A DNA stretch of 64,000 bases from Parapedobacter lycopersici. Its GTDB lineage: Bacteria > Bacteroidota > Bacteroidia > Sphingobacteriales > Sphingobacteriaceae. Position numbers and translations under genes: made by a program. Below, piece by piece: positions 36,109 to 48,792 of the stretch. The notes beneath the pieces were generated by a model. The model did not search any database. It was not told where the DNA came from and saw only the letters and a program-made list of their open reading frames with translations. The stretch covers positions 62,001 to 126,000 of the forward strand of contig NZ_JAMSLW010000006.1 in NCBI RefSeq assembly GCF_024643285.1, read 5' to 3'. How positions within the stretch are numbered: position 1 is the stretch's first letter; the number at the start of each line of letters is the position of its first letter.

Positions 36109-37680
36109 TTAATTATCTTTCATCCAATAGAAAGTAACATCCTCGTCATCACGACCAAGGTATTGCACGGCTTGCGCATACCCGGCAGGTGTTGCATTTA
36201 CAACCTGTACTACCGGATAAGTTAAACGTTTAATAAACGTACCCAAAGGCAATAATGGGTTCTGCGGGTCCATGATGTGGTATTGCTTCGGATATCCGGT
36301 ACGACGGATTTCACTCCATCCTTCGGTTCCCTCAGGCCACATGGCGATCCATTTCTGCGTGATGATTTTCTCCAGTTTGGTCTCGAAACCCGCTCCTTCG
36401 TCCCATTTTACCGTTACGTTTGATAAGACTGGAGCGCTATAATTGGCCGTTTTCGGATCAACATATGGAAGCATGGTACTAGTACTTTGTAGGTATTGGT
36501 CCGCGCCGGATACACCATTTTCTTCGATGGATACCCGGATTCCCTGTTCATAAAACTCTTGAGCGGTGCCGCCCATATTGAATCCCCTTAACGCGCCTTC
36601 GGCACGAAGGAAATAACTTTCGGCAACATCCATAACGGTAACAGGATCTGTTAACTGAAAGTTGGGTAGCGAGAAGTTTACATAAGTATCCTTTGCCGGG
36701 TGTTTACCTCCCGGTCGGATGCCGCGGTATTCGCCATTCAATGCCGGATCTGTAGCGGGACGCGCATAAGCCGGTAAACGGGGATCACCAAAGCCGTCCA
36801 TGTAGCTAATAATAGCAGCGGACATCCGGGTATCACTCCAGGCATCACGCATGGTTACATAGGCATTTCCTGCAGGGTTGGTGACACCAAAAGAACCAAC
36901 TGTTTCATCCAGCAGTCCACCGTTTGCTGGATCGATCGCTTTTTCAGCTTCTGTCTTCGCTTGTGCGGCGTCGACAGCAGAAATACGGATGGCCAACCGG
37001 AGCCGCAGGGTATTGGCGGCCTTAATCCAGCTCGTATACTCGCCCTTGAGTGTGGAATTATCCCACCGTTTAAAACGAGTGACGTCTGCATCGGGATTCG
37101 CTGCTTCGGCTGCCTGGAGCGCGGCTACTGCCCAATCCAAATCCTTAAAAAACAATGCATAACACTCTTCCGGTGTGTTAAATTTTGGTTCCGCCGTTAA
37201 TCCGTATTCTTCATACGGATAAGGTCCGAACGTGTCGACTAAGCGATGTCCGCCGAATACCTTAGCGATGAGCGCAATGGCATACAAATCGGGATATTTC
37301 TCCTGGATATTATTTTTATACATCGCCACCCAGTTGTTCATTACACTATTTGTGGTAACGGTCCAGGACCCCGGCCATCGACCCCTAGTGTTATACGTTA
37401 GCGTATTCACATTGCCGGTAAATTCTCCGGGGGGCTCTAAATAGCCCGCGTACGATTCCGCCTGCAGGTTTTGCTGGGTTTGTACGGAGGTAGTGATACT
37501 AACGATGTTATTCATCATCGAAGGAAGCAGGAAGCCCCCCTCATTGGCGTCGTAAGACAGGCCCTGATCGGAGATGTGTTTTTGGTTTTTGTTCAACCCC
37601 TCAAAATCTTCGGTACAGGCCTGTGTGGCCAACACCGCCAGGGCCAACCACAACGCTTTGGATTTTATTTTTTGATTCAT
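36109..37680 (-). CDS. SusD/RagB-family nutrient-binding outer-membrane lipoprotein (copy 2)
   Basis: A 523-residue lipoprotein (Cys22 in LATQAC) paralogous to copy 1: EDFEGLNKNQ after the Cys, TLRLRLAIRISAVDAAQAK, ALRGFN, ITQKWIAMWPEGTEGWSEIRRTGYP. It should pair with the SusC encoded 52 bases upstream as the surface ligand-binding lid. Differences from copy 1 in the loops between helices suggest another ligand. The operon ends with the terminator at 36051-36086. Confidence 0.93.
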   Translation of the reverse strand: MNQKIKSKALWLALAVLATQACTEDFEGLNKNQKHISDQGLSYDANEGGFLLPSMMNNIVSITTSVQTQQNLQAESYAGYLEPPGEFTGNVNTLTYNTRGRWPGSWTVTTNSVMNNWVAMYKNNIQEKYPDLYAIALIAKVFGGHRLVDTFGPYPYEEYGLTAEPKFNTPEECYALFFKDLDWAVAALQAAEAANPDADVTRFKRWDNSTLKGEYTSWIKAANTLRLRLAIRISAVDAAQAKTEAEKAIDPANGGLLDETVGSFGVTNPAGNAYVTMRDAWSDTRMSAAIISYMDGFGDPRLPAYARPATDPALNGEYRGIRPGGKHPAKDTYVNFSLPNFQLTDPVTVMDVAESYFLRAEGALRGFNMGGTAQEFYEQGIRVSIEENGVSGADQYLQSTSTMLPYVDPKTANYSAPVLSNVTVKWDEGAGFETKLEKIITQKWIAMWPEGTEGWSEIRRTGYPKQYHIMDPQNPLLPLGTFIKRLTYPVVQVVNATPAGYAQAVQYLGRDDEDVTFYWMKDN

Positions 37681-37732: not shown

Positions 37733-40700
37733 TTACAATCCTACCCGTAATGACAGACCGATAGAGCGGGCCGAAGGCGTTTGGAAGTTTTCAAACCCTT
37801 GACTGCCATTGGTAGTGCCATAAGCCAATTCCGGATCGAAGGGCGCTTTTTTGTACAGGAAGAAGAGGTTACGGGCAATTAACGATACATTGATGCTCCG
37901 AATCCGGTCCGTAAATTTCGGTAAGGTATAACCCAATGCAAATTCACGTAAGCGGATATTGGTGGAGTCAAATATATACTCCTGAGAAGCGGCGTTGTAG
38001 TCGGCCGCTGCAGAAATATAGTAGTAGTACGTCTGCGCATCGATCGTCCGGCCGTTTAGCACCACGCCACCGGCATCCCGTGCTTCACCACTCCGCTTAG
38101 ATAAGCCCTTGTAATCCAGCCACTGTTCGGTCGAAGAGGCTACCAAGCCACCCCACCGGCTATCTAACAAGAATGACAACGTAAAGTTTTTATACGTAAA
38201 TTGGTTATTCCAGTTAAGCAGGAAATCGGGGTTTGCATTACCGATAAACTGATCGTCTACGGCAGATAATAAGGGTAAGCCGGTTTCTTCGTCAAATAAC
38301 TGGTTGCCATTTTCGTCGTATTGGTAGCTCTTGCCAAACAAGTCGTGGTAAGCACCGTATTTACGGCCATTTAACAGATCGCTGCCCGGGCGGAGCAGGT
38401 ACATGTTGGTTAACCGGTTGCCGGAATTCAATACAAAACGGTCAGCAGAAAGGAGATCGCTCAATTGCTTAATCCGGTTGGTGTTACGGGTAAAGTTTAC
38501 ACTGGGGCTCCAGGTCACTTGTCCGAATTGTTTCCGATAGCTCAACCCGGCCTCAATACCCATGTTTTGAATGGTGCCACCATTGATCCAGAAGTTAGAT
38601 GCACCGGATCCTGCAGGGGCAGTAATCTGGAATACCTGATCTTCGGTAGTCGCGTTGTAGTAGGTGACATTCAAATTCAGGCTGTTGTTGAAAAAGCCTA
38701 AATCGACACCGAATTCCAAGGACTTCGTACGTTCGGGTTGTAAGCTGATGGTGTCCGTACCGCTGAAGAAAGGCAAGGCGCCACGACCCACAATGTTTCC
38801 GTTTACGTCAAGGGTATAGTTTGGTGCGCGTTCCGAGGCGCCGAACGGCAGACTATTACCAACTTCGGCGTATGATCCCCGCAGTTTAACGTGAGATACC
38901 ACATCGTTTTGCGGTAAGTCTTCGCTCAGTACATACGAAAGGCCGACAGATGGATAGAAGAACGCATCATCCACCGTGGATGACCACTCGTTGCGGGCGG
39001 TCACGTCGAGGAATAGTTTGTCTTGCCATCCCAATGTAGCCGCACCCATTACTGCACGATTGATTTCCTTTGTTTTGCTTTCTCTGCGAATAAAATTTCC
39101 TTGCAAGGCGTAAGCGGAGAAATAATTAGGGAAAATCAAGGTGTTTTGGGCGCCATTGGTTCCATTCTCGAGATTATGGAAATTCCAGATCGTCTGGCTG
39201 GTTCCTACGAAAGCATTCAGTGAAATGTCGCCAAAGGTTTTGTTTGCATTGACAATGAAGTCAGAAAACCATTCCTGGCCACCGCTGATCTCTTTGTTGT
39301 ATGAACCGTTTGCACCTACCGATGTGGGATCGGAAGATGCACCAAAGCGCTCTTCTTCATCTCTGCTATAAATGTTCAGTGTGGTACGACCCGTAGCTGT
39401 TAACCAATCCGCAATATCCCATTTCGCTGAAGTCATGAAATTGGTGCGGCTAAAGTTCTGGTCACGCTGAATCTGATTGATAATCCAGTAGGGATTCTGG
39501 TTGGAGCTGTGCTCGTTACGGATATACGGCCAGTTTTGGGTATACATTAACCGTGCCTCGTTCCACACCGCGCCACCATTGGGCATGTATTTACCCATGT
39601 CATCGCCCATTGGGAACAGATACAGACCAAACATCGGACTGTTGTACCAGCCGGAAAAGTTACGGTTTTCAGTCACGCCTTTGATGTAGTTGATGCTTGC
39701 ATCCAGTTGTACTTTATCGCGGAAAATGGGTGTGCTACCGCGTACCGTAAAGTTATGCCGGCTATAGTCATAGCCCGGAATCATTGCCTTAGCCGTGGTA
39801 TTTGCATAAGATGCATACATCCGGCTTTTGTCATTGCCGCTGCTGATGGAGACACTGTTGATGTAGTTTTCGCCCGTGCGGAAGAAATCCTTGATGTGCG
39901 CATCACTGCCGTTGGTGATTTTCGGACCCCAACTGTCGTTGGTCCCGGTCCCAGGTTCTCCATCCAGTCCCTGTCCGTAGGTAGTCTGGATTTCGGGTAA
40001 TAACATGGGGTTGTCAAACATTGCTGAAGAGGCTACATTGACTTCCGTGCTGCCTAACTTTCCTTTTTTGGTGGTGATCAAAATTACACCGTTAGCTGCC
40101 TGGCTACCATAAAGCGCTGCTGCAGAAGCACCCTGCAATACCTGCAGGCTTTCGATGTCTTCCTGGTTGAAGTCAGCGAAACCGCCTACTGGAATACCGT
40201 CAACCACATACAGCGGCTGGTTGTTACCGGTAATCGATTTGTTTCCCCGGAGCACAATACGAGGTGCCGCACCCGGACCACCGTCACCCTGTGTTACGAA
40301 TACACCCGCGGCCCGTCCGGCCAGGTTATTCAGTACGTTGGGGCTTTTCACTGCGTTCAACTCCTCGGAAGATACTTTGGTCGTATTATACGTCAAACTC
40401 TTGGATGAACGTTCAATACCCAGTGCCGTTACCACCACTTCATCTAATGACGTCGCATCTTCTTCGAGGGTCACATTAATGGAAGTACGGTTGTTAATTG
40501 CTACGGTCTGGCTGACATGTCCGATGTAGGTGAACGTCAGCGATGCATTGCCGGGCGCATGGATTGAATAATTGCCCTGATCGTTGGTGCTTGTTCCCTG
40601 ATTGGTGCCCGTTACGAATATCGAAACATTCGATAGTGGTGTACCATCCGACCCGGAAACCCGGCCGGTGACTGTGATATCCTGAGCCATAACATAACTG

Positions 40701-40750
40701 CTACTGCTCAGAAAAAGACACATTAAAAGAAAAAGTTGCCATTTTTTCAT
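37733..40750 (-). CDS. SusC/RagA-family TonB-linked outer-membrane protein (copy 2)
   Basis: A 1005-residue TonB-dependent importer: signal peptide (1-22), regulatory-like domain (about 24-105), DEVVVTALGIER, plug (about 115-215, IVLRGNKS and PLYVVDGIPVG) and barrel. Like copy 1 it has no STN domain. It is divergently oriented to the exported-enzyme gene group that begins at 41537, with a stand-alone STN protein as nearest neighbour, which makes this pair the best candidate outer-membrane importer for that group's substrate. N-terminal similarity to copy 1 is very high, so the pairs arose by duplication. Confidence 0.95.
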   Translation of the reverse strand: MKKWQLFLLMCLFLSSSSYVMAQDITVTGRVSGSDGTPLSNVSIFVTGTNQGTSTNDQGNYSIHAPGNASLTFTYIGHVSQTVAINNRTSINVTLEEDATSLDEVVVTALGIERSSKSLTYNTTKVSSEELNAVKSPNVLNNLAGRAAGVFVTQGDGGPGAAPRIVLRGNKSITGNNQPLYVVDGIPVGGFADFNQEDIESLQVLQGASAAALYGSQAANGVILITTKKGKLGSTEVNVASSAMFDNPMLLPEIQTTYGQGLDGEPGTGTNDSWGPKITNGSDAHIKDFFRTGENYINSVSISSGNDKSRMYASYANTTAKAMIPGYDYSRHNFTVRGSTPIFRDKVQLDASINYIKGVTENRNFSGWYNSPMFGLYLFPMGDDMGKYMPNGGAVWNEARLMYTQNWPYIRNEHSSNQNPYWIINQIQRDQNFSRTNFMTSAKWDIADWLTATGRTTLNIYSRDEEERFGASSDPTSVGANGSYNKEISGGQEWFSDFIVNANKTFGDISLNAFVGTSQTIWNFHNLENGTNGAQNTLIFPNYFSAYALQGNFIRRESKTKEINRAVMGAATLGWQDKLFLDVTARNEWSSTVDDAFFYPSVGLSYVLSEDLPQNDVVSHVKLRGSYAEVGNSLPFGASERAPNYTLDVNGNIVGRGALPFFSGTDTISLQPERTKSLEFGVDLGFFNNSLNLNVTYYNATTEDQVFQITAPAGSGASNFWINGGTIQNMGIEAGLSYRKQFGQVTWSPSVNFTRNTNRIKQLSDLLSADRFVLNSGNRLTNMYLLRPGSDLLNGRKYGAYHDLFGKSYQYDENGNQLFDEETGLPLLSAVDDQFIGNANPDFLLNWNNQFTYKNFTLSFLLDSRWGGLVASSTEQWLDYKGLSKRSGEARDAGGVVLNGRTIDAQTYYYYISAAADYNAASQEYIFDSTNIRLREFALGYTLPKFTDRIRSINVSLIARNLFFLYKKAPFDPELAYGTTNGSQGFENFQTPSARSIGLSLRVGL

Positions 40751-41536: not shown

Positions 41537-42109
41537 ATGCAAGTTTTTTTATGCCATAATAAACCGGTCACCGGCCAAAAAAGGCTAACAGGCTTTATGC
41601 AACGGGGTATCGGTATGGTCCTGTTTCTCCTGGTGCTTTCTGTGTCCATGGTCTATGCAGGAAGCGCGGTAAAAAAAGTGACACTTTCGTTTAAAAATGC
41701 GAAAATCGAACAGGTATTTACAGAAATAAGCAAACAGACCGATTACCGTTTTTTCTATAGCGATGAAGTGGCGCGTAAAGCTACACCGGTGAGTATTTCG
41801 GTGAAAGACGTCGACGTGCTTGACCTCCTTAACGAACTTATGCACGGGCAGTCCATGAAGTATAAAGTGATTGCAGGTACTATCATTATTAATATGGCCA
41901 GCCAGCTGGACCGGATGGATCCCCATCCGGTGCTTTCCCAGCAGATCATTGTTTCCAATGCAGACGGGGAGGATATGGATGAGTTACTGCCGCCGTTCCG
42001 GAAGACTGTAGGCCTGATGCCTGCTGACCGGATGGAGAAGGTGGTGCCAAAGCAACCCGACCGTTACCTTAATCATACACCGCTCGCCGAAGAGCCGGGC
42101 GGTAGCTAA
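41537..42109 (+). CDS. stand-alone STN (secretin/TonB short N-terminal) domain protein
   Basis: A 190-residue exported protein. After a hydrophobic signal (about residues 25-42) comes a typical STN domain (about 46-115): VTLSFKNAKIEQVFTEISKQTDYRFFYSDE split by the pattern L-x-x-hydrophobic, then PVSISVKDVDVLDLLNELM and YKVIAGTIIIN. In most Bacteroidota this domain is the first module of a SusC/FecA-type receptor and contacts an anti-sigma factor, but here no regulatory-like, plug or barrel domain follows. The last 70 residues are polar, low in recognisable structure, and may be a decayed linker. The start ATG at 41537 follows an AAGGA-like stretch; a later ATG (41597) would also keep the signal. 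The neighbouring SusC proteins lack STN domains. Confidence 0.75.
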   Translation: MQVFLCHNKPVTGQKRLTGFMQRGIGMVLFLLVLSVSMVYAGSAVKKVTLSFKNAKIEQVFTEISKQTDYRFFYSDEVARKATPVSISVKDVDVLDLLNELMHGQSMKYKVIAGTIIINMASQLDRMDPHPVLSQQIIVSNADGEDMDELLPPFRKTVGLMPADRMEKVVPKQPDRYLNHTPLAEEPGGS

Positions 42110-42218: not shown

Positions 42219-43445
42219 ATGCAACGTAGAGATTTATTAAAGTTTATTTCAGTAGCGCCTTTGGTAGGCGGTGCGGTTGGAAGTAAACTGACAGCCAGTC
42301 CGGCCAAAACACAGGCTTATGGCGCGGCAGGAAGAGATTTGTTTAAAGAGTTCGGTATCCGCACGTTTATTAACGGTCGCGGTACGATCACAGCCATGTC
42401 CGGATCGCTGATGCATGATGAAGTGCTGGATGCCATTAAGGCAACTTCCAGGAACTTTTGCATGATCGATGAATTACAGGACAAGGTAGGCGCCAAAATC
42501 GCAGAGTTGTGCCATTCTGAATCTGCTGTAGTTACTTCCGGCGCTTTTTCTGCGCTGACACTGGGACTGGCGGGTGTGCTTACAGGTACAGACGAACAGA
42601 AAGTGCGGCAGCTGCCCCACTTGGAAGGTACTGGTATGAAATCGGAAGTAATTTGCCAACGGAGACACGATATCGCTTATAATCATGCGTTCCTGAATAC
42701 GGGATGTAAGATTGTGATGATCGACACAGCGGAAGAGCTCCGCAACGCGATTAACGAAAAGACGGCGTTACTATTTTTCCTGAATATTAATGCGGATCGT
42801 GGTCAGATTGGTCACGAAGAATGGCTTAAGATTGCCCAGGAACACAATGTGCCTACGCTGATCGATATGGCAGCCGATGTGCCGCCGGTAGAAAACCTCT
42901 GGCGGTTTAATGACATGGGATTTGACCTGGTCTGCGTATCCGGAGGCAAAGCCATGCGTGGCCCGCAAAGCGCAGGCCTCCTGTTGGGACGTAAGCGTTT
43001 TATCGATGGCGCCCGACTGAGCATGTTCCCCCGCGGTTTTAACGTGGGCCGTGGCATGAAAGTGAATAAAGAGGAAATTTTCGGGATGTATATCGCCCTG
43101 GAAAAATTCATCAATGAAGACCACGATAAGGTATGGAGGAGTTGGGAAAGCCGTACAGCTGTGGTTGCCGACCAGGTGAAACGGGTGGACGGCGTGACTA
43201 CGGAAGTTACCGTGCCGGAATTGGGCAACGTGACGCCGAACCTGCATATTTCCTGGGATGCGGCCAAGATTCCGGTCAATGGAAACGAATTAGCGGAGCG
43301 CCTGCGGAATGGCAGCCCCTCGATTGAGATCGTTGGCGGACGGGAAAATAAAGTATGGCTGACGGTATGGATGATGCAAGAGGGTGAGGAGAAGATCGTG
43401 GCGAAGCGGATTCACGAGGAGCTTACCAAGGCCCGGGTTTCCTAA
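42219..43445 (+). CDS. Tat-exported SelA/DgaE-like PLP-dependent lyase
   Basis: A 408-residue PLP enzyme of the SelA-related branch (L-seryl-tRNA selenium transferase / D-glucosaminate-6-phosphate ammonia-lyase-like) of fold type I. The N-terminus MQRRDLLKFISVAPLVGG has a twin-arginine motif and a hydrophobic stretch, indicating export in folded, cofactor-loaded form. Catalytic features include the Schiff-base Lys244 in CVSGGKAMRGPQ, the Asp of LIDMAADVPP that pairs with the pyridine nitrogen, and the SGAFSALTLGLAG phosphate-cup-like segment. The likely reaction is alpha,beta-elimination of ammonia from a D-amino or aminosugar acid to a 2-keto acid. It is followed by the amidohydrolase, a pairing known for the DgaE/EF_0838 and EF_0837 families. 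Confidence 0.85.
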   Translation: MQRRDLLKFISVAPLVGGAVGSKLTASPAKTQAYGAAGRDLFKEFGIRTFINGRGTITAMSGSLMHDEVLDAIKATSRNFCMIDELQDKVGAKIAELCHSESAVVTSGAFSALTLGLAGVLTGTDEQKVRQLPHLEGTGMKSEVICQRRHDIAYNHAFLNTGCKIVMIDTAEELRNAINEKTALLFFLNINADRGQIGHEEWLKIAQEHNVPTLIDMAADVPPVENLWRFNDMGFDLVCVSGGKAMRGPQSAGLLLGRKRFIDGARLSMFPRGFNVGRGMKVNKEEIFGMYIALEKFINEDHDKVWRSWESRTAVVADQVKRVDGVTTEVTVPELGNVTPNLHISWDAAKIPVNGNELAERLRNGSPSIEIVGGRENKVWLTVWMMQEGEEKIVAKRIHEELTKARVS

Positions 43446-43501
43446 TACACAGTACAGTACACACATGAAATAAACAGTTATTATTGGATTAAACTAAGTA
43501 T

Positions 43502-44815
43502 ATGAAGTTAAAACTAGTGGCAGCACTATGGTGCTGCGTGGCAGGATTGGCAAGTGTTAATGCCCAAAGTTATCGGTTGGTGATCAAGAACGGGCATGTC
43601 ATCGACCCGAAAAACAATATTGATGAGGTAATGGATGTGGCGATAGCCGGCGATACCATTGCGCTCGTGGCCAAAAATATTGACGGCGCAGATGCGTTGC
43701 AGGTGGTTGATGCGAAGGGCCTTTATGTGGTTCCGGGACTGATCGATATCCATACCCACCATTATTGGGGGACTAACATGGACCAGCAGTATATGAACGG
43801 ACCGAATGCATTTCCGCCGGACGGTTTTACATTCCGCAACGGAGTAACCACCGTAGTGGATGCAGGAAGTCCGGGATGGCGTACATTTGCGGATTATAAA
43901 AAGCAAACCATCGATTTTTCGAAGACCCGGGTACTCGCTTTCCTGAACATTGTAGGTGAAGGCATGCGCGGTGGGGTTTATGAGCAGAATACCGACGATA
44001 TGGACCCGAGGATGGCGGCACTTACTGCACGTCGGTACCGTGACTACATCGTTGGGTTTAAAGTGGCCCACTTTGAGGGACCGGACTGGACTCCGGTAGA
44101 AAATGCGGTAAAGGCAGGTGAACTGGCTGGCGGACTACCAACAATGATCGACTTTGGTGGCAGCAACCCGCCATTGTCCATCCGCGAGCTATTCCTGGAA
44201 AAACTGAACCCGGGCGATATTTTTACCCACGCTTTCGGCCAGTTGGGCAGCCGGGAATATATCGTTGACCTGGAGACGCAGAAAGTAAAGCCTTTTGTAT
44301 ATGAGGCCCGCAAACGCGGAATTAATTTCGATGTCGGTTACGGCGGAATCAGCTTTGCATTTTCGCAGGCTATCCCTGCAATAAAGGAAGGGTTTTACCC
44401 GAACTCCATCAGTACCGATATCCACATTGGCAGCATGAACGCCGCTATGAAGGACATGCTGACTGTAATGGATAAGTTTATTGTGATGGGGATGCCGTTT
44501 AATGAAGTAATTAAAGCTTCTACCTGGAATCCGGCACAGATGATCAAACGGGAAGAACTCGGCAACCTGTCAGTGGGCGCGCCTGCTGACGTTGCCATCC
44601 TGGGAATCCGCAAAGGCGATTTCGGCTTTTTTGACTACGTAGGTACCCGGTTGGAAGCCGACCAACGGCTGGAATGTGAATTGACCGTTAGGGACGGTGG
44701 TATTGTATACGACCTGAACGGAAGAGCAACACCGTTGAACGTCGATTACCGGAGCTATCTCCGTCAGGAGAATATCCGCAGGCAGACCGGCAACGGTGGA
44801 ACCCGGCCGCACTAA
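43502..44815 (+). CDS. Sec-exported amidohydrolase of the Atu3266/EF_0837 deacetylase type
   Basis: A 437-residue metallohydrolase with a cleaved signal peptide (MKLKLVAALWCCVAGLASVNAQ). Amidohydrolase motifs: HTH (His84, His86) in GLIDIHTHH, a carboxylated-Lys position Lys187 in VGFKVAHF, His243 in FTHAFGQ, and catalytic Asp306 in STDIH. The usual beta-5 His of this family appears to be Asp217 (MIDFGG). Related enzymes deacetylate N-acetyl-D-amino acids or O-acetyl-mandelate-type esters. Here it should release the acyl group from an N-acyl compound outside the cytoplasm and hand the free amine to the PLP lyase encoded 56 bases upstream. Confidence 0.85.
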   Translation: MKLKLVAALWCCVAGLASVNAQSYRLVIKNGHVIDPKNNIDEVMDVAIAGDTIALVAKNIDGADALQVVDAKGLYVVPGLIDIHTHHYWGTNMDQQYMNGPNAFPPDGFTFRNGVTTVVDAGSPGWRTFADYKKQTIDFSKTRVLAFLNIVGEGMRGGVYEQNTDDMDPRMAALTARRYRDYIVGFKVAHFEGPDWTPVENAVKAGELAGGLPTMIDFGGSNPPLSIRELFLEKLNPGDIFTHAFGQLGSREYIVDLETQKVKPFVYEARKRGINFDVGYGGISFAFSQAIPAIKEGFYPNSISTDIHIGSMNAAMKDMLTVMDKFIVMGMPFNEVIKASTWNPAQMIKREELGNLSVGAPADVAILGIRKGDFGFFDYVGTRLEADQRLECELTVRDGGIVYDLNGRATPLNVDYRSYLRQENIRRQTGNGGTRPH

Positions 44816-44937
44816 AAAAAGGCAATTTATGTCGGTTTTTATGCGGATATATTTGTATCATTGGAGCCTATTATAATAAACTTAATAAACAGCCATTCCT
44901 TTTGCATCATTTGGTAATGGGAGGCATAAAAACAACA

Positions 44938-45429
44938 ATGATGAGTAAAATAACCAAATTATTAACACTATTGGCCGTAATTGGGGTATGCATCAGCTGT
45001 GCGCCGGGCGCGGGCAATAATCAAGAGCAAAACAATCAGCAAATGACTAAAGACACGTTGGACGTTGCAGAAGTGGAAGCCACCGTCGAATCATTCCGGC
45101 AGGCATTGGTTGCAGCAGATGAGGCAGCATTAACCAATTTAACAGCTAAAGAACTTACTTATGGGCATTCCGGGGGCTTGATCGAAGACCAGGCAACCTT
45201 TATCAATTCCATGGTATCTAAAAAGTTCGTATTTACCAGCCTGGACTTTTCGGATATCACGATTGCGGTTATTGGAAATACAGCGGTTGTCCGGCATTCG
45301 CTGTTTGCACACACGGCCGACCAGGGGAAAGATCCGGGTACGGTTTCACTGCACGTGCTGTTGGTATGGGAAAAGATTGATGGCCAGCTGAAGTTAATTG
45401 CCCGGCAGGCGGTTAAGGTAGCGCAATAA
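44938..45429 (+). CDS. NTF2-like (DUF4440/SnoaL-type) lipoprotein
   Basis: A 163-residue lipoprotein (lipobox ISC, Cys21) starting at one of two adjacent ATGs (44938 or 44941). The mature part is a single NTF2-like cone (about 45-163): VEATVESFRQALVAADEAALTNL, then LTYGHSGGLIEDQ and VVRHSLFAHT, ending LKLIARQAVKV. Proteins of this fold bind small hydrophobic or polar ligands or act as isomerases or lyases; none can be assigned here. It lies 120 bases after the amidohydrolase and 32 before the transporter, so it is likely part of the same transcript and pathway. Confidence 0.8.
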   Translation: MMSKITKLLTLLAVIGVCISCAPGAGNNQEQNNQQMTKDTLDVAEVEATVESFRQALVAADEAALTNLTAKELTYGHSGGLIEDQATFINSMVSKKFVFTSLDFSDITIAVIGNTAVVRHSLFAHTADQGKDPGTVSLHVLLVWEKIDGQLKLIARQAVKVAQ

Positions 45430-45461
45430 GGCAGATCGGTTAATACTAATCACATCATAGA

Positions 45462-46727
45462 ATGGAAAAAATATTAGCACGGTCGCGTTGGTATCGGCTG
45501 ATACCCATTGCGTTTATTACGTATAGTCTCGCTTATCTGGACCGGTCGAACTTCGGTTTTGCCGCTGCCGGCGGCATGGCGGAGGACCTGGGGATTACGC
45601 CGGGTATGTCGTCGCTGCTGGGTTCGCTGTTCTTTCTGGGATACTTCTTTTTCCAGATTCCGGGATCACACTATGCTGCGACGAAAAGTGCCAAAAAACT
45701 GATTTTCTGGTCACTTATCCTGTGGAGTGCACTTGCTGCAGCCACAGGTATGGTGCACGACGTCAATATGTTGATCGCAATCCGCTTTCTGCTCGGTGTA
45801 GTGGAAAGTGCGGTGATGCCTTCGATGCTTATTTTATTAAGTAATTGGTTCACTAAAGAGGAGCGGTCGCGCGCCAACACGTTTTTGATCCTGGGGAACC
45901 CAGCCACAGTATTGTGGATGTCGGTGGTCTCCGGATACCTGATCGATGCGTTAGGCTGGCGGGAGATGTTCATTATCCAGGGTGTGCCAGGGATTCTTTG
46001 GGCATTTATCTGGTGGAAATTGGTGGATGAGAAGCCAAAAGATGCAAACTGGATGACCGAAGGGGAAAAGGCAGATCTGGAAGAAGCGCTTTACAAGGAG
46101 CAACAGGGAATTAAGCCGGTTAAGAATTATGCCGAAGCATTCAAGTCGCGGGCCGTTATTCTGCTGTGTGCACAATACATGTTGTGGAGTGTAGGCGTGT
46201 ATGGCTTTGTCATGTGGCTGCCGTCGATTATTAAGTCGGCTCCGAACATGGATATCGTGATCACCGGCTGGTTATCCGCGGTGCCTTATATTCTGGCAAT
46301 CATCGGTATGTTGGCAGCTTCTTACTTTTCGGATAAGACAATGAACCGGAAGGTATTCATCTGGCCTTTTCTGTTGGTTGGTGCTATCGCGTTTTACCTG
46401 TCGTACCTGATTGGCGAGAACCATTTCTGGTTGTCTTTTGCATTACTGGTTATCGCAGGTGGAGCTATGTACGCCCCGTACGGTCCGTTCTTTGCTGTAA
46501 TTACAGAGATTCTGCCGCGTAACGTTTCGGGAGGTGCGATCGGACTGATTAACAGTATGGGGGCGCTCGGTTCGTTCGGCGGCGCTTACATCGTGGGCTT
46601 TTTGAATGGCTCTACTGGGGGCTTCGGTGCATCGTATATCCTGATGGCCGTTTCCCTGCTTGCCTCGGCCATTCTAACCATCGTTGTGGTGAAGTCGCCC
46701 AAGCAGATTGCGGCTCAGGCTCAATAA
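45462..46727 (+). CDS. MFS transporter, anion:cation symporter (ACS) family
   Basis: A 421-residue inner-membrane carrier with twelve predicted helices. The N-terminal signature RWYRLIPIAFITYSLAYLDR and NFGFAAAGGM match the ACS family (hexuronate, glucarate, tartrate and other organic-anion importers), as does the conserved RFLLGVVESAVMPSM segment. In this operon it most plausibly imports the organic acid made in the periplasm by the deacetylase and the PLP lyase. Substrate specificity cannot be read from sequence. A strong hairpin follows the stop. Confidence 0.88.
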   Translation: MEKILARSRWYRLIPIAFITYSLAYLDRSNFGFAAAGGMAEDLGITPGMSSLLGSLFFLGYFFFQIPGSHYAATKSAKKLIFWSLILWSALAAATGMVHDVNMLIAIRFLLGVVESAVMPSMLILLSNWFTKEERSRANTFLILGNPATVLWMSVVSGYLIDALGWREMFIIQGVPGILWAFIWWKLVDEKPKDANWMTEGEKADLEEALYKEQQGIKPVKNYAEAFKSRAVILLCAQYMLWSVGVYGFVMWLPSIIKSAPNMDIVITGWLSAVPYILAIIGMLAASYFSDKTMNRKVFIWPFLLVGAIAFYLSYLIGENHFWLSFALLVIAGGAMYAPYGPFFAVITEILPRNVSGGAIGLINSMGALGSFGGAYIVGFLNGSTGGFGASYILMAVSLLASAILTIVVVKSPKQIAAQAQ

Positions 46728-46781
46728 ATACAACAATGATGTTTATCGGTAATCGCGATAAATACGGGCATTAATTGCTTT

Positions 46782-46815
46782 AATAAGCCATCCCGACTTG
46801 TCGGGATGGCTTATT
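46782..46815 (+). terminator. perfect 16-base hairpin after the MFS gene
   Basis: AATAAGCCATCCCGAC and its exact complement separated by a 2-base loop, ending in TTATT. It probably terminates the operon 42219-46727, leaving the RidA gene as a separate unit. The rest of the 389-base gap contains only the -7 box noted at 47026. Confidence 0.7.
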
Positions 46816-47025
46816 CATCTCGCAGCAGGCGATTGATTGTAAACCAATTCATATTAATAAACCTGAGTTCCGCTGTCGCTTCTACATGATCCAAATATAC
46901 AGCGGGTTATTATTTTCGGCGGATTGTTTGTGTTCTGTGGGGAAAGTGGGATATTTAGCGGGATTGTTTTGTAAATTTTACCACGAAGAAGCAGCGCGAT
47001 AATAGGATAACAAAGGTGGATTTTG

Positions 47026-47033
47026 TAGATTTG
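47026..47033 (+). promoter_or_regulatory. candidate -7 box for the RidA gene
   Basis: TAGATTTG, a full TAnnTTTG match, 83 bases upstream of the ATG. No convincing -33 box. Confidence 0.35.
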
Positions 47034-47116
47034 GTCATGATTCGGATGGATGCAGGAAAATGCGATGGAACTGGAATTTAATTTAACATTAACTATTAAC
47101 TTTTAATTTTTACCTC

Positions 47117-47587
47117 ATGGAAATGAAAAATAATGAACGCCGTTCCGCATTGCGGAAAATTTTTGCATCAGCGGCCGGAGTTGTCGGTTTAGGCTTCCTT
47201 GCAAAAGCTGAAGCAAAAGCAGCTGCTCCTGAAAAAGAAGCAGGAAGCATTACCTATCAACAAAATGCACCGTTATTTTCCGGACATACCAAACACGGTA
47301 ATCTGGTGTTCATCGCCGGAAAAGGCGCTCACTTTGACGGAGATATTACCGCACACACCAATCACGTGCTGGATGAAGTGCAAAAAGAGCTTGAAAAAGC
47401 AGGTTCTTCTATGGAAAAAGTGTTGAAAGTAAACGTATACCTGGCGGATTTGGCAGACTATACCAAAATGAATGAGGCCTACAAAGGTCGCTTTGGCAAC
47501 AAACCTCCTGTACGTACGACCGTGGCTACATACGGTGGTGTACCGGGTGATTCCCTCGTGGAAATCGACTGCATTGCTTACGTTTAA
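47117..47587 (+). CDS. exported RidA (YjgF/UK114) family enamine/imine deaminase
   Basis: A 156-residue protein. The first 35 residues (ERRSALRKIFASAAGVVGL, then AEAKA) are a twin-arginine-like signal, unusual because most RidA proteins are cytoplasmic. The RidA domain (about 42-156) has the catalytic Arg133 in PPVRTTVA, the family pattern GNLVFIAGKG and the C-terminal VEIDCIAYV. RidA hydrolyses reactive enamine/imine intermediates released by PLP enzymes. Its presence just after an operon with an exported PLP lyase argues that it protects or completes that reaction in the periplasm. It has its own candidate promoter and terminator. Confidence 0.88.
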   Translation: MEMKNNERRSALRKIFASAAGVVGLGFLAKAEAKAAAPEKEAGSITYQQNAPLFSGHTKHGNLVFIAGKGAHFDGDITAHTNHVLDEVQKELEKAGSSMEKVLKVNVYLADLADYTKMNEAYKGRFGNKPPVRTTVATYGGVPGDSLVEIDCIAYV

Positions 47588-47684: not shown

Positions 47685-47703
47685 TTTGTATAAACCTCAT
47701 GTT

Positions 47704-48792
47704 ATGAATAATAAGTTATATCTGCTCGGCGTGCTTCTTCTTTTCATCGGCATGACTTCGCAACCTGTCCACGCGCAACAGGATCAGCCATACGCACCAC
47801 CACAGCTTAGTAACCCCCAGTCCTGGTCGCTGGTATTGCTGCCCGATCCGCAGAGTTATGTGAAATTTGAACGGAACCAGGGCGCGCTCGAACTCATGAT
47901 GGGCTGGATTGCCGAAAACATTGAACCGTTGCAGATTGGCATGGTGCTCTGTACGGGTGATTTGGTGGAACATAACGATTGGCTGAACCCGAACGGAACA
48001 CAGGGTAACCAACCGGGAAAACAACAATGGGAAGCCGTAGCACGGGCATTCAACCGGCTTGACGGCAAAGTGCCGTACGTGGCTGCAACCGGTAATCATG
48101 ATTATGGGATCAAAAACATCGAATATCGCCGGACGAATTATAATCAGTATTTCCCTGTTGATAAAAACCCGTTGTCACAACGATTATTACGCGATGTGGG
48201 TATCGACGGCGACGGTTACCCCTCGCTTACCAATGCAACGTATGAATTTACCTCGCCGCACGGACGGAAATTCCTGGTGATGGTGCTCGAGTTCGCACCC
48301 CGGGATACGGTACTAAACTGGGCGCTGCAAACGGTCAATCAGCTGCAATATGCCGATCATACGGTGATCCTGCTGACACATTCCTACCTGAACTCGGAAA
48401 GTGAGCACATTATAAAGGAGAACTATCCGATAACCGATGGTAATTACGGCGCAGCCATATGGGAAAAACTGGTAAAGCCTTCCAAAAACATCCAGTTGGT
48501 TTTTTCGGGGCACATTGGCAAGCCGGACGATGTACTGGGGCATATCGGGTTCCGGACCGATACCAATGCGGCGGGTAAAAAAGTGCAGCAAATGGTATTT
48601 AACGCGCAGGCATTGGGTGGAGGCTGGCATGGCAATGGTGGTGATGGTTGGTTACGTTACCTGGAATTCCTGCCGGATGGCAAAACCGTAAAGGTGAATA
48701 CATTTTCCCCGCTATTTGCGTTGTCACCTGCTACGCGCTACCTGGCCTGGCGTACAGCGGCATACGACACGTTTACATTTACGCTTGATTAA
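47704..48792 (+). CDS. exported calcineurin-like metallophosphoesterase
   Basis: A 362-residue protein with a signal peptide (MNNKLYLLGVLLLFIGMTSQPVHAQ). Metallophosphoesterase motifs are present in order: DPQ in place of the usual DxH (LLPDPQSYVK), GDLVEHN (GDxx), GNHDYG, LLTHS and SGHIGKPDD. It belongs to the secreted two-metal phosphoesterases common in Bacteroidota. Substrate unknown; it may be independent of the upstream operon because it has its own promoter and terminator. Confidence 0.88.
   Translation: MNNKLYLLGVLLLFIGMTSQPVHAQQDQPYAPPQLSNPQSWSLVLLPDPQSYVKFERNQGALELMMGWIAENIEPLQIGMVLCTGDLVEHNDWLNPNGTQGNQPGKQQWEAVARAFNRLDGKVPYVAATGNHDYGIKNIEYRRTNYNQYFPVDKNPLSQRLLRDVGIDGDGYPSLTNATYEFTSPHGRKFLVMVLEFAPRDTVLNWALQTVNQLQYADHTVILLTHSYLNSESEHIIKENYPITDGNYGAAIWEKLVKPSKNIQLVFSGHIGKPDDVLGHIGFRTDTNAAGKKVQQMVFNAQALGGGWHGNGGDGWLRYLEFLPDGKTVKVNTFSPLFALSPATRYLAWRTAAYDTFTFTLD

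Follow-up and report, generated by a model that had tools for sequence, protein, structure and literature searches.

A predicted exported deacetylase, PLP lyase and RidA gene set in Parapedobacter lycopersici and related Bacteroidota

Within a 64,000-nucleotide stretch of the 3.62 Mb genome of Parapedobacter lycopersici (contig NZ_JAMSLW010000006.1, positions 62,001 to 126,000), hereafter the window, five genes stand in a row on the plus strand between positions 42219 and 47587, as a sequence-only reading had correctly described. They encode a pyridoxal phosphate (PLP) enzyme, an amidohydrolase, a DUF4440 lipoprotein, a carrier of the major facilitator superfamily (MFS) and a RidA protein. We propose that they probably form an extracytoplasmic catabolic module for an N-acetylated 2-amino-2-deoxy-aldonic acid. 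The linkage of these genes is not due to chance, and a group of soil and water Bacteroidota appears to deacetylate and then deaminate a probable amino-sugar acid outside the cell interior, taking in the nitrogen-free product only. What seems new is that these functions are combined in a putatively exported form, around a predicted chemistry and in linkage with SusC/D and RraA.

Results

The first gene (positions 42219 to 43445, plus strand) encodes a PLP enzyme of the SelA/DgaE-like fold-type I class, which profiles, a structural model and Lys244 suggest to be a 2-amino-3-hydroxy acid ammonia-lyase working by beta-elimination; it opens with a twin-arginine translocation (Tat) signal region, MQRRDLLKFISVAPLVGG..., at 42219 to 42323 (plus strand, upper boundary approximate). 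The second (43502 to 44815, plus strand) encodes a putatively exported amidohydrolase/deacetylase of the PRK09237 group, with a Sec signal peptide (43502 to 43564, plus strand) predicted by sequence and the rule given below to be cleaved before Gln22. It scores 444.3 bits against the NF006689/PRK09237 amidohydrolase/deacetylase profile (cut-off 371) and 218.6 bits against that of EF_0837 (TIGR03583), below the cut-off of 432.15, and the metal ligands and catalytic residues (HxH, Lys, His, Asp) are intact in 80 of 80 family proteins. The MFS protein (45462 to 46727, plus strand), an ACS-type carrier matching PF07690, is a predicted importer of keto-deoxy acids; its nearest NCBIfam model is the galactonate transporter TIGR00893, at 263.4 bits and thus below the curated cut-off of 395. 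RidA (47117 to 47587, plus strand) matches PF01042 with 73.2 bits (cut-off 27.3) and carries a Tat signal; the conserved Arg and Glu are kept in 53 of 53 relatives, and the protein is predicted to be an exported enamine/imine deaminase.

By inspection, the N-termini of the PLP enzyme (MQRRDLLK...) and of RidA (NERRSALRK...) are of the twin-arginine type, and the amidohydrolase has a Sec-type signal ending in SVNA before Gln. Of 106 PLP proteins (a set that includes one duplicate), 105 have twin arginines among their first 70 residues, the single exception being probably an open reading frame (ORF) whose start was placed late by the gene caller; 52 of 53 RidA-1 proteins have them among their first 45. 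A crude signal scan, which assigned the TAT class to 22 of 621 unlabelled background proteins, was used for that class only; its Sec part was dropped because it labelled 288 of these 621 proteins as SEC. A stricter Gln cleavage-site rule, here called the Q-rule (compare PMC5837995), takes a hydrophobic N-terminus followed by a small-x-small-Gln cleavage site, and found such a site in 77 of 88 amidohydrolases, 14 of 17 RraA proteins, 11 of 19 lactonases and 11 of 23 RidA-2 proteins. The corresponding controls gave 0 of 93 in six families treated as non-exported (2-keto-3-deoxygalactonokinase (DGOK) 5, 2-keto-3-deoxy-6-phosphogluconate (KDPG) aldolase 4, sigma factors 28, FecR 29, SBF 21 and MFS 6) and 85 of 481 unlabelled proteins, and at least 2 of the 11 amidohydrolases that the rule missed are N-terminally cut ORFs. 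Together with TatC, which is encoded in the same genome, these counts support at the sequence level the export that had been proposed for the PLP enzyme, the amidohydrolase and RidA; the PLP enzyme has the twin-arginine signal of a Tat substrate, and its Tat-dependent export is predicted. By inspection, six of the seven RidA-family proteins of this genome start like exported proteins, three of the Tat and three of the Sec type.

Beyond the Bacteroidota, the N-termini of six haloarchaeal and proteobacterial PLP homologues lack the twin-arginine region. Inspection of Granulicella tundricola, on the other hand, found twin-arginine signals on the PLP enzyme, RidA, a second PLP protein and the lactonase, a Sec-type signal on the amidohydrolase and a possible signal on RraA, whereas none was seen on the PLP enzyme, Rid protein and lactonase of Halosolutus or on the PLP enzyme and RidA of Rhizobium and Paraburkholderia. 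Since signals are present or absent jointly in these hosts, the PLP enzyme, RidA and their partners seem to tend to move together with regard to export.

The PLP and RidA genes also occur together. A close PLP homologue (E < 1e-90) is found in 24 of 151 genomes of the family and a close RidA homologue (E up to 1e-25) in the same 24; 11 further family genomes, with PLP matches only at E 2e-5 to 9e-4, were not counted as positive. In a phylum sample (PLP E up to 1e-20, RidA E up to 1e-25) both occur in the same 8 of 395 genomes, which span 7 genera and 5 families. At these thresholds, no genome in either sample has one of the two without the other, and the Fisher test of co-occurrence gave 2e-28 for the family and 7e-17 for the phylum, values that do not represent independent trials because the genomes are related. 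Within the family sample, neither gene occurs in the 8 remaining genomes that share the window's genus. RidA is commonly seen as protecting PLP enzymes in the cytoplasm from reactive enamines. A RidA with an export signal like that of its PLP enzyme, found in every genome that has the latter in the two samples (24 of 24 and 8 of 8), argues for a direct catalytic partnership.

Among the matches listed, the closest RidA and PLP genes lie 13-86 bp apart in 8 of 18 genomes and less than 3.7 kb apart in 17 of 18, these being 18 of the 31 co-occurring genomes, with the 13 multi-copy genomes of the Daejeonella type (g21) left out. Neighbourhoods were compared at 79 loci from named genomes, the best of at least 553 relatives and chosen as closest homologues. 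Of their 97 PLP genes, 56 have an amidohydrolase and 36 a RidA as the adjacent same-strand gene, typically about 30 bp away (medians); the amidohydrolase stands directly downstream 54 times (median gap 30.5 bp) and RidA directly upstream 35 times (32 bp). Gene content was counted at the 50 loci where the PLP gene is flanked by 6 kb or more on either side, 28 with shorter flanks and one without a PLP ORF (L114) being dropped. An amidohydrolase is present in 43 of the 50 and RidA in 36, all of which also have the amidohydrolase, followed by GSDH-like proteins (35), CBM9 (19), SusC and SusD (14 each), RraA (9) and lactonase (9).

The gene order of the window is intact in Sphingobacterium chungjuense (locus L063) and in one further genome of the family (G131, locus L181), where SusC, SusD, the PLP enzyme, amidohydrolase, DUF4440, MFS, RidA and RraA form one tight operon on one strand, with gaps of -76 to 29 bp from the PLP gene to RraA. 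Identities to the window proteins are 68% for the PLP enzyme, 74-75% for the amidohydrolase, 43-51% for DUF4440, 73-75% for the MFS protein, an orthologue in both, and 76% for RidA. RidA therefore belongs to the operon. In the window itself the MFS and RidA genes share the plus strand, as the sequence-only reading had it, but their row is broken by a 389 bp gap (29 and 4 bp in the two relatives) containing a strong hairpin at 46782 to 46815 (plus strand, z -5.9), a possible terminator without a clear T-run that a terminator scan did not list. Because of this gap and hairpin, RidA may be a transcription unit of its own here; the window also appears to be without the RraA and SusC/D genes that bracket the operon elsewhere. 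The neighbourhood search bore out the conserved linkage that had been predicted for related genomes, in several Bacteroidota families and one Acidobacterium, Granulicella keeping the same partners in another phylum.

The set in the window is one of several in its genome, which holds 9 PLP paralogues; its amidohydrolase matches number 15, some of them distant or pieces of a single gene, so that close paralogues come to about 11. Genomes of the Daejeonella type reach at least 12 PLP matches. Several sets have SusC/SusD, sigma and FecR genes of their own, which is the layout of a nutrient-uptake locus.

As to the substrate, the neighbours of the PLP genes point to sugar acids, and we therefore favour N-acetylated amino-aldonic acids. 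The PLP operon of locus L109 contains DGOK (PF05035, 205 bits) and a KDPG/KHG aldolase (PF01081, 134 bits), and similar genes stand in the same layout at L098, L116 and L122; lactonases (PF10282), gluconolactonase-like proteins and cytochrome c proteins are further neighbours. The genome of the window has one DGOK and two KDPG-type aldolases, one of which adjoins the DGOK gene. In Halosolutus, the PLP neighbourhood holds dgoD, glucose 1-dehydrogenase, a lactonase and a PIG-L deacetylase, and in Paraburkholderia a GntP permease. Lactonases and an RraA-like aldolase, itself putatively exported, belong to the wider system, as do proteins that were weakly assigned as sugar-dehydrogenase-like. Where the sequence-only reading had allowed a D-amino acid or an amino-sugar acid, these neighbours speak for the latter. 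The same exported trio could instead act on an N-acyl D-amino acid, such as N-acyl-D-serine or -threonine or a beta-hydroxy D-amino acid derived from peptidoglycan or peptides, and yield 2-keto acids after dehydration. OngC, which acts on glucosaminate, is described in the accessible part of its report as also deaminating D-serine and D-threonine (PMC9537276), and one sister set (L040) has a gamma-glutamyltranspeptidase and an MlrC-like protein in place of sugar genes. We nevertheless consider a D-amino acid unlikely in view of the lactonase, gluconolactonase, DGOK and KDPG aldolase genes.

The nearest characterised sequence relative of the PLP enzyme is DgaE. The protein scores 25.8 bits against Pfam SelA (PF03841, cut-off 22.8), and its 181 bits against the DgaE family model TIGR01437 and 137.6 bits against the DgaE model NF047797 stay below the cut-offs of 385.3 and 600. 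Its structural model (pLDDT 94.3, pTM 0.90) has the DgaE fold (7lc0: Z 38.0, root-mean-square deviation (rmsd) 2.4, 352 residues aligned) and is further from SelA (3w1i, Z 25.6). The PLP-binding lysine, Lys244 in the window protein, is kept in 106 of 106 aligned proteins, 101 of which have Lys or Arg at the position of the carboxylate-binding Arg226 of DgaE. The substrate of DgaE, an enzyme of the cell interior, is phosphorylated, and the available text of its report assigns phosphate binding to the positions Arg301 and Arg346, the former lying near the 6-phosphate in a docked model, and protonation of the enamine to the proton donor His163, without which the enzyme stays active but releases the enamine (PMC9529869). 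These phosphate arginines and this histidine are absent from the window enzyme. Across the family the Arg301 position is Arg in 1 of 106 proteins, a string search found the DPR motif of Arg346 in 0 of 106, and the His163 position is His in 0 of 106. The missing arginines fit an unphosphorylated substrate and the missing histidine fits enamine release and a need for RidA, both of which would suit a periplasmic enzyme with a RidA partner.

Loss of His163 was also considered as a predictor of RidA linkage and set aside, given that the correlation is not clean among the few non-Bacteroidota homologues: the Halosolutus enzyme lacks His163 and adjoins a Rid gene, whereas that of Haladaptatus lacks it with no annotated Rid close by, and that of Rhizobium keeps a His-His pair and yet adjoins a RidA gene. 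A tie between the two is a suggestion only.

The fold also fits Cap15, reportedly an oxidase of antibiotic biosynthesis. This O2- and PLP-dependent enzyme (8t7j) is the top match of the model by VIA-align (Z 39.8, rmsd 1.9, 349 residues aligned) and the second by Foldseek E-value, and the structure search was unable to separate an ammonia-lyase from a Cap15-like oxidase. The PLP enzyme could then be an O2-dependent oxidase or oxidative decarboxylase, drawing its oxygen from the periplasm and leaving an imine product for RidA to hydrolyse, and the hosts include aerobic soil genera. We regard this as improbable, more so than a D-amino acid substrate, since DgaE is closer by sequence (E 8e-31 vs 6e-23) and the neighbouring DGOK and KDPG aldolase call for a 2-keto-3-deoxy product, the direct outcome of an elimination.

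Discussion

We suggest the following course for the amino-sugar acid module. An N-acetylated 2-amino-2-deoxy-aldonic acid of the N-acetyl-glucosaminate or N-acetyl-galactosaminate kind would be present or made in the periplasm and deacetylated there by the exported amidohydrolase. Next, the PLP enzyme, which would have folded and taken up its cofactor before Tat export as shown for PvdN, would remove the C3 hydroxyl by beta-elimination, and the Tat-exported RidA would hydrolyse the released enamine/imine to ammonia and a 2-keto-3-deoxy acid. The MFS carrier would import this nitrogen-free keto acid for use via a kinase and a KDPG-type aldolase; in sets with RraA, the exported RraA-like aldolase would cleave it outside instead. 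Many sister sets may also encode upstream steps, namely sugar oxidation by dehydrogenase/cytochrome c proteins and lactone opening. More tentatively, and at somewhat worse than even chances in our estimate, the whole amino-sugar route, from oxidation, lactone opening and deacetylation to PLP elimination, enamine hydrolysis by RidA and retro-aldol cleavage, could have been relocated outside the cytoplasm and each genome could have come to hold several copies of it, linked to SusC/SusD. In this reading, loss of the histidine that quenches the enamine in DgaE is what made the PLP lyase and RidA move jointly. If so, what enters the cell would be limited to keto acids free of nitrogen, or to pyruvate and aldehydes, and catabolic PLP-lyase/RidA chemistry would take place in the periplasm, which was not found in the literature searched.

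The closest described system is the ong pathway for oxidised chitin in Pseudoalteromonas, with the deacetylase OngB, the PLP deaminase OngC, the RidA protein OngD and KdgK, according to the accessible part of the report (PMC9537276). As in the window, deacetylase, PLP deaminase (there yielding 2-keto-3-deoxygluconate and ammonia) and RidA are linked in one cluster, and OngD is essential for growth on GlcNAc1A, its role being stated as unknown (PMC9537276). Unlike the window proteins, however, OngB and OngC are predicted to be cytoplasmic and GlcNAc1A itself is imported, whereas the window system would import a keto acid; OngC is of fold-type III and not of the SelA/DgaE fold, and OngB is D-aminoacylase-like (PMC9537276). 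In our comparison OngB matches the window amidohydrolase weakly (E 8e-4, residues 26-87). A second parallel is the glucosamine route predicted for the haloarchaeon Natrarchaeobius, which comprises a CE14 deacetylase, a glucose dehydrogenase, a DgaE-like lyase and a 'RutC' protein (PMC12343721). It shares with the system described here a DgaE-like lyase clustered with a deacetylase, a sugar dehydrogenase and RutC, a Rid-family protein, and an amino-sugar acid as substrate class; the DgaE-homologous haloarchaeal enzyme is placed in N-acetylglucosamine catabolism via glucosaminate, after phosphorylation to glucosaminate-6-phosphate (PMC12343721). The route differs in that phosphorylation comes first and that it is a prediction in which the available text does not propose export. 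Finally, PvdN and PtaA of pyoverdine maturation are PLP enzymes that acquire their cofactor in the cytoplasm and leave it through Tat in the folded state, but they serve biosynthetic siderophore tailoring, and the part of the source at hand mentions neither a RidA nor a deacetylase partner (PMC6206403). The sequence-only reading was aware of no described pathway of this form. For the exported combination this stands in so far as no description of an exported deacetylase/PLP lyase/RidA pathway was found among the top-ranked literature results, which scarcely cover subscription journals; the parts have precedents in the cytoplasmic trio of the ong pathway and in PLP enzymes exported by Tat.

Several observations weigh against the exported amino-sugar acid module. 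The proposal is built on sequence analysis, from which gene content, linkage, co-occurrence, export signals, catalytic residues and fold were read; localisation and chemistry, including substrate, reaction order and transport direction, we infer. Concerning linkage, the 79-locus set over-represents close homologues, and within 6 kb of the PLP gene 7 of the 50 well-flanked loci have no amidohydrolase and 14 no RidA; in the window RidA lies apart behind the hairpin, and the set there is without RraA, dehydrogenase and lactonase. The GSDH-like assignment is weak (23.7-42.7 bits vs a cut-off of 25), the matches of such a protein in the PDB mainly cover its cytochrome c part, and export sites in this group are patchy (Q-rule 19 of 67, lipobox 15 of 67); in Granulicella, inspection saw no signal on the BBE-domain oxidase. 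The four DGOK loci look like one related lineage of metagenome-assembled genomes, and their MFS proteins are distantly similar to that of the window (47-50 bits). As for catalysis, the fold of the PLP enzyme fits Cap15 as well as DgaE, another His stands elsewhere in the His163 loop in 34 of 106 PLP proteins, and the Rhizobium enzyme joins a retained His-His pair to a neighbouring RidA gene. Some relatives of the amidohydrolase, moreover, are said to cleave acetyl esters rather than amides, and of the cog3964 relatives Atu3266 has been reported to hydrolyse acetyl-(R)-mandelate. This last point, and seven loci (L088, L102, L103, L108, L110, L121 and L136) with neither amidohydrolase nor RidA within 6 kb of the PLP gene, would suit exported proteins in a loose neighbourhood that form no pathway, with the amidohydrolase acting as an esterase on O-acetylated hydroxy acids while the PLP enzyme works independently of it, which is the least likely alternative and a very improbable one given the directly adjacent amidohydrolases at gaps of about 30 bp and the same partners in Granulicella.

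If the amino-sugar acid module is as proposed, it would give the Bacteroidota of soil and freshwater, perhaps along with Acidobacteriota, a means of using amino sugars outside the cytoplasm and of leaving the ammonia there. In addition, the role of RidA in amino-sugar-acid catabolism, the point raised by OngD, becomes testable, as the exported PLP enzyme and RidA could be assayed together, away from cell metabolism.

Further features of the loci

The DUF4440/NTF2-like lipoprotein between the amidohydrolase and MFS genes (44902 to 45429, plus strand), identified by profile and with orthologues in the same place in L063 and L181, seems accessory, and by inspection its true start is probably near 44938. 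Upstream of the PLP gene, a 190 amino acid ORF with an STN domain by profile (41537 to 42109, plus strand) is 24-29% identical over 80-125 residues to the SusC proteins of L063 and L181, and may be the N-terminal remnant of a lost SusC gene like the one that precedes the operon in these relatives. Beside the operon, profiles identify a SusC-type TonB-dependent transporter (37733 to 40750, minus strand), 28-29% identical to the SusC of the relatives' operons and not a close counterpart, and its SusD-type lipoprotein partner (36109 to 37680, minus strand); the pair was set aside as the operon's own transporter because it is just 26-29% identical to the operon-opening pair of L063 and L181. Downstream of RidA, an exported metallophosphoesterase (47686 to 48792, plus strand) occupies the place of the relatives' RraA-like aldolase, its membership of the set being uncertain.

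Among the paralogous sets, long Tat-PLP proteins (L038:9462-11126, L038:5659-7251 and L039:5671-7368) have a C-terminal extension of about 110-130 residues, which gave no Pfam match in the one paralogue scanned, L038:9462. Two RidA proteins of the genome (L042:6747-7244 and L043:6784-7281) and the PLP paralogue L038:5659-7251 begin with an identical Tat signal, MKRREILKSLTVLPL, a pattern that looks like an exchange of signal peptides between them. At L040:8324-14594, a Tat-PLP gene stands with the MlrC-like protein, a Sec-signal RidA and the gamma-glutamyltranspeptidase, perhaps a peptide-directed variant.

Gene fusions were also seen. In seven loci (L118:3941-5506, L096, L123, L124, L126, L129 and L132) the PF10282 lactonase is fused to a RidA-like domain (PF14588; Pfam check on L118 only), which would join lactone opening to enamine hydrolysis, and at L107:12560-14359 the amidohydrolase is fused to a YhcH/YjgK/YiaL (DUF386) domain. 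In the genome of the window, L180:2-9285 (G000:C16, about 482.0-491.3 kb) has two proteins of the mandelate-racemase/enolase superfamily, one with a twin-arginine signal by inspection and the other cut at its start, which flank SusC/SusD and precede DGOK and a KDPG-type aldolase; this may be a second, amine-free sugar-acid set, dehydrating outside and phosphorylating inside. On a Granulicella plasmid (L143:8107-18787), the BBE-domain oxidase and a signal-bearing beta-galactosidase lie beside the exported PLP, RidA, amidohydrolase and lactonase genes.

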